Part shown: in pieces, positions 43,503-55,367 of the stretch
Layout of the letters: each line of letters begins with the position of its first letter
Position numbering within the stretch: position 1 is the stretch's first letter
Assembly: GCF_030269305.1 (NCBI RefSeq)
Contig: NZ_BSTC01000001.1
Span: 819,467-883,466 of the forward strand
Source: Kineosporia sp. NBRC 101731
Lineage (GTDB): Bacteria > Actinomycetota > Actinomycetes > Actinomycetales > Kineosporiaceae
Reading direction: 5' to 3'
Length of the DNA stretch: 64,000 bases
Position numbers and translations under genes: made by a program
Notes under the pieces: generated by a model
Seen by the model: only the letters and a program-made list of their open reading frames with translations
Database searches by the model: none
Told to the model about the DNA's origin: nothing

Positions 43503-43655
43503 GATCTCGATCGTGTGTTGTGTGGGCGATAGATCGGGTGAAAGTTTTTCGCTCCGACCCCCAACCCCGCGAGGGCTCCGCCGTGTTCTTCCCGACGACA
43601 GCGCATCACGCACTGTCGTCGAGACGAGTGTCGAGGGTCGAGGGGGAACAACCTG

Positions 43656-44492
43656 ATGAAGAAGGTGACCACGGCGAGGGCGGCGGTCCTGGCCATGTGT
43701 GCGGCACTGGTGGTCGGGTCGGCGCCGGTGGCGCAGGCCCAGCCGGTGGCGGGAGAGGGGCGGCTGGTGGCTGCCGGTCTGCCCCAGACCGGTGACCAGC
43801 TGTCCTACGTGCAGCGGGGCGGAGCGGTGCAGGTGTACCGGTCCGGGGAGAGGCTGGCCGACGTGCGCGTCGCCTCGGCTGCGCATCCCGAGGGCCGGGG
43901 CAAACTGGTGCTGACGGTGAAGGCCCATCAGACCTTCGCCTTGCGGTTCGGCCAGTTCGTCTGGGCCGATGCCACCGGTGACCATGACGCGGTCAGTCCA
44001 CTGCGCAAGGTGAGGATCAAGGGCGGAACCACCGAGAGTGTCTCCATCCGGTTCGACGGGGTGGAGAACGGCAATGTGCTCTGGGCACCCCGGCGGGAGA
44101 ACACGGTCGGAGCCTGGAAGGTCTCGGCGCGCCGGATCATCGGTCTGTCGCATCTGCTGTCGCCCAGCTACGTGCAGAGAGACGCGGTGGTGTCGGTCTA
44201 CAAGGCCGGTGCGCCGGTGGCCCGGGTGACGGCGCAGTCGGCCGTGCACGCCGAGGGTAAGGGGGCGCTCCGGCTGGAGGTCGAGGTGCTGAAGAAGATC
44301 TCGCTGCGGCCGGCGGCATTCGTCTGGGTGGACGAGGCCGGTGAGCGGCACCGGGTGGTGAACGCCCGGAAGGTCACCGTGGCACCGAAGACCACCCGCA
44401 CCCTGACGTTCGGCTACACCGACGTCGAGGCCGGTGAGGTCGTCTGGTCGCCGCGCGTCGGTGTGGTGGCCGGTGCCTGGGGTGTCGGCTGA
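43656..44492 (+). CDS. Secreted protein with duplicated beta-rich domain
   Basis: A 278-residue secreted protein: signal peptide ~1-29 (ends AQA), then two homologous repeats of about 105 residues. Repeat 1 starts YVQRGGAVQVYRSGE and repeat 2 YVQRDAVVSVYKAGA; both have FVW (FVWADATG, FVWVDEAG) mid-way and end xxW-P-R near a GAWxV stretch. The same repeat appears in the membrane protein at 45193. I recognise no named domain; it is all-beta by composition. ATG 43656 has a purine-rich GAGGGGG ahead. Confidence 0.82.
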   Translation: MKKVTTARAAVLAMCAALVVGSAPVAQAQPVAGEGRLVAAGLPQTGDQLSYVQRGGAVQVYRSGERLADVRVASAAHPEGRGKLVLTVKAHQTFALRFGQFVWADATGDHDAVSPLRKVRIKGGTTESVSIRFDGVENGNVLWAPRRENTVGAWKVSARRIIGLSHLLSPSYVQRDAVVSVYKAGAPVARVTAQSAVHAEGKGALRLEVEVLKKISLRPAAFVWVDEAGERHRVVNARKVTVAPKTTRTLTFGYTDVEAGEVVWSPRVGVVAGAWGVG

Positions 44493-44522
44493 TCCGGCTG
44501 GGTCGGCGCATGGTGTGAAAGC

Positions 44523-44552
44523 GCCGGGCAGACGGAAAGCTGTCTGCCCGGC
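44523..44552 (+). terminator. Hairpin terminator
   Basis: GCCGGGCAGAC and GTCTGCCCGGC are perfect 11-base complements around GGAAAGCT, between the secreted-protein gene and the sigma-factor gene, so the latter has its own promoter. Confidence 0.8.
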
Positions 44553-44599
44553 GGCCTGGGGGCAAGGAGAACGGCTGTCCGGGTGATCGCGGGGGACGG

Positions 44600-45196
44600 A
44601 TGAGGCAGGACCTGAAAGACCGCTTCCAGCAGATGGCGCAGGTGGAGTTGCCGAGGCTGCGGCGCTTCGCGTACACGATGTGTGAAGACTGGCACCGGGC
44701 CGACGACTACGTGCAGGGGGCACTGGAGCGGATGTATGTCGCGTGGCCCCGGGTGCACGGGATTGCCTATCCGGGAGCCTATTTGCGCGCAATTCTGGTG
44801 CGGCAGATGCTGAACGAGTGGCGTCGGCCGTGGCGGCGTGAGCACAGCACCGATGAACTGCCCGAGGCCGGGTACGAGACCACCGGCGGTGCTGACCTGG
44901 GGCTCGACCTCGCCCGGGCCCTGTCGGGGCTCAGCACCCGGCAGCGGGCGGCCGTGGTGCTGCGATACGTCGAAGACCGGCCGGTGGCCGAGGTCGCGCA
45001 GATCATGGGGGCCGCGCCGGGTACCGTGAAGCGTCACTGCTCCGACGCCGTCGTCCGGCTGCGACGAATCCTCGGCGAGAACTTCATCGACGATCGTCTG
45101 CACGACGACTCGCGTGGTTCGCCGTCCGGTGGGCGGCCCGTATCCGAACTCGTACCCGAACTCGACCTCGACGAGACCGGCAGAGGTATCCGATGA
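44600..45196 (+). CDS. SigE-family ECF RNA polymerase sigma factor
   Basis: A 198-residue ECF sigma factor of the SigE-family subgroup. Region 2: FAYTMCEDWHRADDYVQGALERMYVAWPRV (about 24-53). Region 4: LSGLSTRQRAAVVLRYVEDRPVAEVAQIMG and GTVKRHCSDAVVRLR. The C-terminal ~35 residues are acidic and unconserved. ATG 44600 has GGGGGACGG ahead. Its stop overlaps the next gene's ATG (ATGA), so the membrane protein is a probable anti-sigma or sensor. Confidence 0.92.
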   Translation: MRQDLKDRFQQMAQVELPRLRRFAYTMCEDWHRADDYVQGALERMYVAWPRVHGIAYPGAYLRAILVRQMLNEWRRPWRREHSTDELPEAGYETTGGADLGLDLARALSGLSTRQRAAVVLRYVEDRPVAEVAQIMGAAPGTVKRHCSDAVVRLRRILGENFIDDRLHDDSRGSPSGGRPVSELVPELDLDETGRGIR

Positions 45197-46149
45197 ACGC
45201 AGAACCCACTCCGCTGTCGAAGAGACTCAAACAACTCGACGCGGTGACGCAGGCCCAGGGCATGCCCGAGTTCGACCTCGACGCGGCGGTGCGGGGAGGG
45301 GAACGGCGTCAGCAGCGGCGCAGTATCGCCGGTACCGCAGCCGCGACCGTGGGCGCCGGGCTGGTCGCGGCTGCGCTGTTCGCCGGTGGGGTGCACTGGA
45401 ATGCTTTCTGGGGTGAGGATCCCGATCCGGCCCCGAGCGCGGCCCCGGCCGACCTGGTCTATGCGCAGCACGGTGATTCGGTGACGGTGTCCCGGGGCCG
45501 TGACCCGCTGGCCCGCGTCACGGTGAGCTCGGTGGCGGTTGACGGGAACGGCAGGGGAACGGTCGAGGTGATGGTCGACTCGGATGCCGAGTTCGTCCTG
45601 CCGCTGTCCGATTTCGTCTGGGCGGGTGATTCTCTCGACCGCCTTTCGGGTGCTGCTGCGGTGACGGTCGACGGCTTCCGCACGGTCCGTTGGACGTACG
45701 AGGGGGTGTCCGACGGTGAACTGGCCTGGACGGTGCCCGGTACCGACCGGCTCGCGGGCGTGTGGAGCGTGGGTGACCGGGTCGAGCCGGTGGCTGCCGA
45801 CCGGTCCTGGTACCTCCAGGTCGGCAGCGCCGTGACGGTGTACGAGGGGGTCGAGCCGCAGGCGCGGGTGACGGTGTCGTCGGTTGCTGTCGGTCGTACG
45901 GTCGGTGCGGCGCATGTCAGCGTCACTGCTCATGACGGCTACGAGCTGAGGGCCGACGACTTCGTCTGGGCCGAGGAGAGCGGTCCACAGCATGCCCCGC
46001 TGGCTGACGACTGGAGATCCTTGTCGGCGCGCGGCGATGCGGTGAATACCGGCGACCTCCGCTTCGCCGGGGTGGGGGAGGGCTACCTGTTGTGGGCGCC
46101 GGACGGCCTGGAGACCGCAGGTGTCTGGCTGAGCCCGGCGGCGGGTTGA
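45193..46149 (+). CDS. Membrane protein coupled to sigma factor, with duplicated extracellular domain
   Basis: A 318-residue protein: N-terminal ~55-residue cytoplasmic part (PEFDLDAAVRGGERRQQRR), one membrane helix (~57-75), then two beta-rich repeats. Repeat 1: VTVSRGRDPLARVTVSSVAV, SDFVWAGDS. Repeat 2: VTVYEGVEPQARVTVSSVAV, DDFVWAEES. These match the domain in the secreted protein at 43656. Its coupling to the sigma gene suggests a membrane-bound anti-sigma factor or sensor, although no clear anti-sigma zinc motif is visible. The extracellular domain would sense a wall or secreted signal. Confidence 0.82.
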   Translation: MNAEPTPLSKRLKQLDAVTQAQGMPEFDLDAAVRGGERRQQRRSIAGTAAATVGAGLVAAALFAGGVHWNAFWGEDPDPAPSAAPADLVYAQHGDSVTVSRGRDPLARVTVSSVAVDGNGRGTVEVMVDSDAEFVLPLSDFVWAGDSLDRLSGAAAVTVDGFRTVRWTYEGVSDGELAWTVPGTDRLAGVWSVGDRVEPVAADRSWYLQVGSAVTVYEGVEPQARVTVSSVAVGRTVGAAHVSVTAHDGYELRADDFVWAEESGPQHAPLADDWRSLSARGDAVNTGDLRFAGVGEGYLLWAPDGLETAGVWLSPAAG

Positions 46150-54761: not shown

Positions 54762-55367
54762 GTGTCCTACCAAAATCCGTCGGAAACAAATCGTCCTGTG
54801 CAGACATGTAGTCGTGTGAGTGATAGCCACGAGTGGTTCCGAGACGTCTACCTGCAGACGTACGCCGACCTGGTGAGGTTCGTGGTCAGGCGAATACATC
54901 CGCCCGACCGCGCGGAGGACGTGGTCGCCGAGGCCTTCGTGATCGCCTGGCAGCGACTTGGGGACCTGCCGCAGGAACTGGATGAGGCGCGGGCCTGGCT
55001 CTTCGGCATCACCCGGCGGTTACTCCTGGCCGAGTACCGGGCGCAGAGCCGGGGGCAGTCGTTGTCGGTGCGGATTGCGGAGAACAGCACGACGACCACT
55101 GCCCACGACGATCTGGTCGCGACCTCCGTGGACCTGATCCGGGCGTGGCAGAAGTTGGCCGCGGTGCATCAGGAGGCCCTGAGCCTCAGAGTCTGGGAGG
55201 GACTGAGTGCCCAACAGGCTGCTGGCGTGCTGAGCATCTCGCCAGTGGCCTTCCGGATCCGGCTGAGTCGTGCTCGCCGTGCCCTGAAGGTTCATCTCCG
55301 GTCGCTGCCCGAGCCTGTTGATCGCTCTGCAAACCCTTTTCCCGTTAAGGAAGGACGCCTGTCATGA
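54762..55367 (+). CDS. ECF-type RNA polymerase sigma factor
   Basis: A 201-residue ECF sigma factor. Region 2: YADLVRFVVRRIHPPDRAEDVVAEAFVIAW; region 4: HQEALSLRVWEGLSAQQAAGVLSISPVAFRIRLSRARRAL. GTG 54762 is used; GTG 54816 (beginning VSDSHEWF) would give a more standard length of 183. Its stop overlaps the next gene's ATG (ATGA), so it is coupled to a membrane protein. It is divergent from the SWIM/MoxR operon. Confidence 0.88.
   Translation: MSYQNPSETNRPVQTCSRVSDSHEWFRDVYLQTYADLVRFVVRRIHPPDRAEDVVAEAFVIAWQRLGDLPQELDEARAWLFGITRRLLLAEYRAQSRGQSLSVRIAENSTTTTAHDDLVATSVDLIRAWQKLAAVHQEALSLRVWEGLSAQQAAGVLSISPVAFRIRLSRARRALKVHLRSLPEPVDRSANPFPVKEGRLS

Follow-up and report, generated by a model that had tools for sequence, protein, structure and literature searches.

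In Kineosporia sp. NBRC 101731, the gene for an exported protein, SecA (copy A), heads a three-gene unit that continues with an ECF sigma factor of the SigE family and its membrane partner, and a domain of ~110 residues is present in two copies in SecA and in another two in the outer half of the partner. A functional link between the exported copy and the sigma factor is well supported, because this layout, which we call X1, is real, conserved and recurrent, and because a sigma-type promoter connects the two. We read the locus, with confidence somewhat short of even, as an autoregulated ECF module whose main output would be the exported copy of the sensor ectodomain, serving as a soluble, ligand-binding component of a negative feedback.

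The three genes lie in a window of 64,000 nucleotides, share one strand and form a single unit (Table 1). The coordinates and reading frames that a sequence-only reading had given for the exported and the membrane protein were correct. The signal peptide of SecA is of the AxA type (...PVAQA-QPV).

Table 1. Genes, repeats and regulatory elements of the X1 locus, in positions of the window
Feature	Position	Strand	Description
Putative sigma-dependent promoter	43562-43587	+	CAACC (-35) 43562-43566, 15 bases, CGTGTT (-10) 43582-43587
Inverted repeat just 3' of the -10 box	43593-43621	+	From leader folding; presumed mRNA 5' end
Exported protein SecA (copy A)	43656-44492	+	278 aa; signal peptide, then two repeats
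Repeat S1 (SecA)	43788-44126	+	Homology; AlphaFold2 mean pLDDT 95
Repeat S2 (SecA)	44145-44489	+	Repeat homology
14-bp stem-loop between exported and sigma genes	44522-44553	+	No T run; in six species
Sigma factor gene	44600-45196	+	198 aa; ECF, SigE family TIGR02983
Membrane partner (putative anti-sigma factor)	45193-46149	+	318 aa; one TM
TM segment of the partner	45322-45390	+	Hydropathy scan; near residue 44
Repeat M1 (membrane partner)	45442-45768	+	Repeat homology
Repeat M2 (membrane partner)	45793-46146	+	Repeat homology

The match between the two secreted repeats and the two repeats of the membrane protein, which the sequence-only reading had proposed, was borne out in every one of the six pairings of these four (blastp, 29-41% identity, E 2e-11 to 3e-25), with local scores of 16-35 sd over 500 shuffles and 19 columns invariant across the four. 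That reading would have been undermined had the repeats belonged to an already assigned common domain that lacks sigma linkage; no Pfam or NCBIfam family was above cut-off for any of them, and neither DUF4352 nor MPT63 gave a sequence match at E up to 10.

The AlphaFold2 model of the X1 repeat, for which 36 repeats from six species served as input, is confident and all-beta (mean pLDDT 95). Foldseek E-values for this model were weak throughout (best 0.004), and the matches were re-examined by VIA-align. The best fold match is MPT63 (1lmi, Z 9.5, rmsd 2.9, 100 residues), followed by a staphylococcal lipoprotein (3qfg, Z 8.7, rmsd 2.6, 103 residues), YcdA (4r4g, Z 8.0, rmsd 2.9, 93 residues) and YjhA (3cfu, Z 7.5, rmsd 3.3, 95 residues). 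The predicted fold of the repeat is the MPT63/DUF4352-like, Ig-like beta-sandwich of exported bacterial proteins. The MPT63/DUF4352 lipoproteins are alike in predicted fold (Z 9.5 to 7.5) and differ in sequence, with an identity to the repeats of only 10-13% and no Pfam match; the modelled likeness is one of fold only, and neither family membership nor function follows from it. We know of no sigma linkage for these lipoproteins.

Actinobacteria possess many SigE-family sigma factors, whose signals are mostly not known, and this genome has 11 that score over the TIGR02983 cut-off. The sigma factor of the X1 locus reaches 143.7 bits against TIGR02983 'SigE-fam_strep', above the curated cut-off of 141.55, and its stop is overlapped by the partner gene by 4 bases, in agreement with the coupling of the membrane protein to a SigE-family sigma factor that had been claimed for it. 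Elsewhere in the window, a second ECF-like sigma gene (54822-55298, +) matches TIGR02983 weakly, at 62 bits. The membrane partner is composed of an Arg-rich cytoplasmic N-terminus of ~43 residues, one TM and the two repeats outside. We infer an anti-sigma role from this architecture, that is, a protein adjoining the sigma factor with one TM, a short cytoplasmic N-terminus and an outer domain; a recognised anti-sigma domain was looked for in Pfam and NCBIfam and none matched, so we describe the partner as a putative anti-sigma factor. When its N-terminus was compared with those of the other 56 SigE partners, only the general architecture proved common, the best score being 10.4 bits against 11.4 for shuffles, and homology of partner N-termini across SigE systems was dropped as not above shuffles.

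What the sigma factor may read is suggested by the upstream regions. In an alignment of the leaders of the exported A genes and of the G003 copy B (the second exported gene, described below), CAACC and CGTGTT are conserved with 15 bases between them; AAC (-35) and CGT (-10) are the canonical ECF promoter boxes (PMC8103513). The motif CAACC-N15-YGTGTTNTT is found exactly once per genome in six genomes of 8-9 Mb, each time heading the X1 operon, and its backward control has zero occurrences across the six. In G003 the exact motif precedes copy B, which is there the exported gene nearest to the sigma gene, and the version ahead of copy A is degenerate (CATCC...TGTGTC). Judged by the strict motif, the sole target would be the operon itself; a looser motif could add targets. 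A loose search with CAACCN{14,17}CGTGTT returned 13 matches, most of the others being inside long reading frames. One site of similar form, CAACC-N16-CGTGTT (L102:3994-4020, -), precedes an orphan Arg-rich one-TM protein beside which no SigE gene was detected.

Two potential RNA elements accompany the promoter. The inverted repeat just 3' of the -10 box folds with z-scores from -3.0 to -6.1 in the leaders of all six exported genes, and its arms vary by species with complementarity largely retained; it is a candidate operator or mRNA-stabilising 5' hairpin. In the stem-loop between the exported and the sigma gene, 97% of cells are paired, three pairs have changes on both sides, and pairing falls to 29-51% in a control with a sliding partner; the shuffle control is only suggestive, as the covariation score was reached by 54 of 500 shuffles. 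The candidate function of this element is that of a partial terminator or a processing site.

All six Kineosporia genomes retain the gene order exported-sigma-membrane, and each encodes six repeats in three proteins, namely exported A, the membrane partner and exported B. The sequence-only reading had suggested that a profile of the four repeats be used to search for further sigma-linked copies; in this genome the profile did recover six repeats in three proteins, but the third of these, an exported protein, is not linked to the sigma factor. Copy B is unlinked in five of the six species and lies between A and sigma in G003. In G000 it is L036 (G000:C8:284192-284896, -), an exported two-repeat protein, and the copy B leaders of five species have GTCGTA(C/G) and GGTCTGACG elements in common in place of the ECF promoter. 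No repeats were detected outside Kineosporia in 52 non-genus relatives and the other 394 genomes of the class sample, the membrane protein had no match among plasmids, and the only match in a scan of genome contigs was the K. mesophila locus, with 94% identity over the query. Relatives too remote for sequence detection may exist outside the genus.

Within these six species of one genus, which are the basis of the distribution reported here, identity is 63-96% for the sigma factor, 56-93% for the exported copies and 37-82% for the sensor ectodomain. The dN/dS values (sigma 0.11-0.24, exported A 0.22-0.54, partner 0.22-0.35) indicate that all three genes are under purifying selection (0.11-0.54 overall). 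Evolution is faster in the sensor ectodomain than in the exported copy, the identity between the more distant species being 37-57% against 56-76%, and in the repeat tree the exported and membrane groups are separate, the long branches being those of the sensor repeats.

The same design is present at two other Kineosporia SigE-family loci, X2 (L096) and X3 (L091), with unrelated ectodomains. In X2 the identity between the exported and the membrane copy is 84% in G000, over 135 residues, and 80% in G002, the two species in which the exported gene is linked to sigma. X2 also provides the most stringent test of the regulation. A promoter of the form TGCAACC-N14-(T/C)TCCGT(T/C) stands before the sigma genes of G000, G002, G003, G004 and G005 and also before the exported genes of G000, G002, G003 and G005; in two of these species, G003 and G005, the exported gene lies elsewhere in the genome, unlinked from sigma, with its promoter retained. 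Exact CAACC-N14-TTCCGTY sites number two each in G002 and G003, both within the X2 system (in G003, one at the sigma gene and one at the exported gene), with one to three additional matches in each other genome and one match of the backward control in the six genomes together. In G000 and G002 the membrane ectodomains of X2 (L096, L187) are nested in the exported clade with 99/99 support, and this nesting suggests that the neighbouring copies were exchanged or recently duplicated, by gene conversion or domain recapture. Such exchange or copying is expected if the exported and membrane copies read the same thing. The model of the X2 domain is mixed alpha/beta (pLDDT 88.6), unlike the X1 beta-sandwich, and its matches to Tsi3, Apa, RseB, Mog1, LpqN and PsbP are weak to middling (Z 9.1 to 5.2), resembling in this prediction the Mog1/PsbP/LpqN group.

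At X3 the exported and membrane copies share 30% identity over 102 residues, and each of the five membrane ectodomains is matched by a profile built from the exported copies (E 1e-14 to 1e-19). The order exported-sigma-membrane is present in five species, a GACAACCATAGG...GCGT-type promoter stands ahead of every exported gene, and the exported copies of several species have lipobox-like sequences. These loci came from a survey of the SigE loci of this genome, its family and its class, comprising 56 non-redundant loci with a membrane partner beside sigma; genes were called by a simple codon-usage script, and start codons are uncertain for some X3 exported genes. Free copies were found at L091, at L096 and its orthologue L187, and at L171 of another genus, where the exported copy (42% over 351 residues) lies downstream of the partner. 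A free copy is nearby at only a minority of partnered loci, which counts against the module reading. Of all genes in these loci, 5.7% have a paralogue nearby, and the free-copy rate by itself is not above this; the case for recurrence therefore rests on conservation and promoters and not on frequency.

We propose that the membrane partner would hold the sigma factor until an outside signal acts on its two-domain ectodomain, and that a ligand on this ectodomain would cause sigma to be released. Judging from the motif, the freed sigma factor would then read one strong promoter ahead of the operon. The exported two-domain copy would be made first and most, with less sigma factor and partner, and the stem-loop before the sigma gene may lower sigma relative to the exported protein. 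The exported copy would most likely bind the ligand of the sensor and neutralise it, as a soluble receptor or scavenger, and this neutralisation would close a negative feedback loop. The faster evolution of the sensor ectodomain argues against the strict form of this model with one and the same ligand, from which it would not be expected, and the second exported copy, lacking the ECF promoter in five of six species, also counts against the module.

The same two observations favour a different origin, which we regard as possible if rather doubtful, in which the exported protein would have work of its own at the surface, where it binds or protects a ligand of the envelope, and the sensor would have borrowed its domain to monitor that ligand, in the manner of SigI/RsgI; the sigma feedback would be incidental. 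The exported copies are more conserved than the sensor ectodomain, whose faster change fits this origin equally well, and five of six species have a second, unlinked exported copy with another upstream region. Elsewhere, domains of the MPT63/DUF4352-like kind are known from free exported proteins or from lipoproteins. RsgI6 likewise has a GH10 domain, and GH10 enzymes are among the targets of its sigma factor (PMC4711584). Against this, the strict promoter gives the operon as the only target where the regulon of an effector would be expected to be wider, and no catalytic domain is attached to the exported protein.

The exported copy could instead bind the partner ectodomain directly, shielding it from cleavage, for which RseB on RseA is a precedent, or bridging it elsewhere. 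The lipobox-like X3 exported copies of several species would sit at the membrane beside the sensor, and the two X2 copies share 80-84% identity in two species, but the X1 and X3 pairs are just ~26-41% identical and we consider such homotypic contact improbable. Smaller still is the chance we give to ordinary tandem duplication, in which the neighbour is by coincidence a copy of the partner gene and has no regulatory meaning: the 5.7% paralogue rate and the occurrence of whole sigma-partner pairs in tandem (L193, L141) speak for it, but it would leave unexplained why the arrangement is kept under selection in six species (X1) and five species (X3) and why sigma-type promoters precede the exported genes, unlinked ones included.

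The sequence-only reading knew of no described system with this layout, which overstates the case. The gene order is that of the mpt83-sigK-rskA cassette of Mycobacterium and others, which comprises an exported protein, an ECF sigma factor and a membrane anti-sigma factor and in which SigK has eleven further target genes (PMC7509140). In both loci, moreover, the exported gene is preceded by a sigma-type site. They differ in that SigK belongs to ECF18/19 whereas the X1 sigma factor passes SigE-fam_strep and is not of the SigK family, and the X1 membrane partner has no RskA match; by analogy, the X1 locus would work like this cassette without being a member of it. To our knowledge, MPT83 (fasciclin) and the RskA ectodomain have no common domain. 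Sharing of a sensor domain (e.g. GH10, CBM3) with secreted targets is described for SigI/RsgI of Clostridium thermocellum (PMC4711584), which is autoregulated, as X1 would be, and comprises several paralogous systems with different ectodomains (PMC4711584). It differs in that its targets are many enzymes and not a free ectodomain copy alone, SigI is not ECF, and the N-terminal domain of RsgI is recognised. RsiV is a one-TM anti-sigma factor whose ectodomain consists of two domains, DUF4163 and DUF3298, and binds the inducer lysozyme directly (PMC4183432). SigV/RsiV resembles X1 in this one-TM, two-domain build and differs in its domains and its sigma group. We know of no adjacent free ectodomain copy in that system. 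The part of the earlier statement that stands concerns the dedicated output: no free ectodomain copy as the output of a sigma factor was found in the open-licence literature searched, which suggests that a dedicated output consisting of the sensor's ectodomain in free form, recurring with unrelated domains, is new.

That the layout recurs with domains unrelated to each other suggests a principle of design and not a one-off duplication. A general design, in which the near-only output of an ECF sigma factor is an exported decoy of its own sensor ectodomain, which arose three times or more within one genus from domains that are unrelated, and in which the decoy receptor switches the response off, is a more speculative proposal that we judge unlikely. 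If the decoy reading is true, these loci would offer a bacterial parallel, open to testing, to soluble decoy receptors. The likely output of the sigma factor can here be read from sequence as a free copy of the sensor domain, and the exported protein is usable as bait for the ligand.

The survey also brought up a different kind of duplication. At L193 (G001) and L141 (G089), whole sigma-partner pairs are duplicated in tandem and their ectodomains have diverged. L141 had been taken as an example of the X1 design in another genus and was rejected, since its 'exported' gene starts with a cytoplasmic N-terminus; the upstream DNA identifies it as a tandem sigma-partner duplication. Such duplication is a plausible route of sensor diversification.
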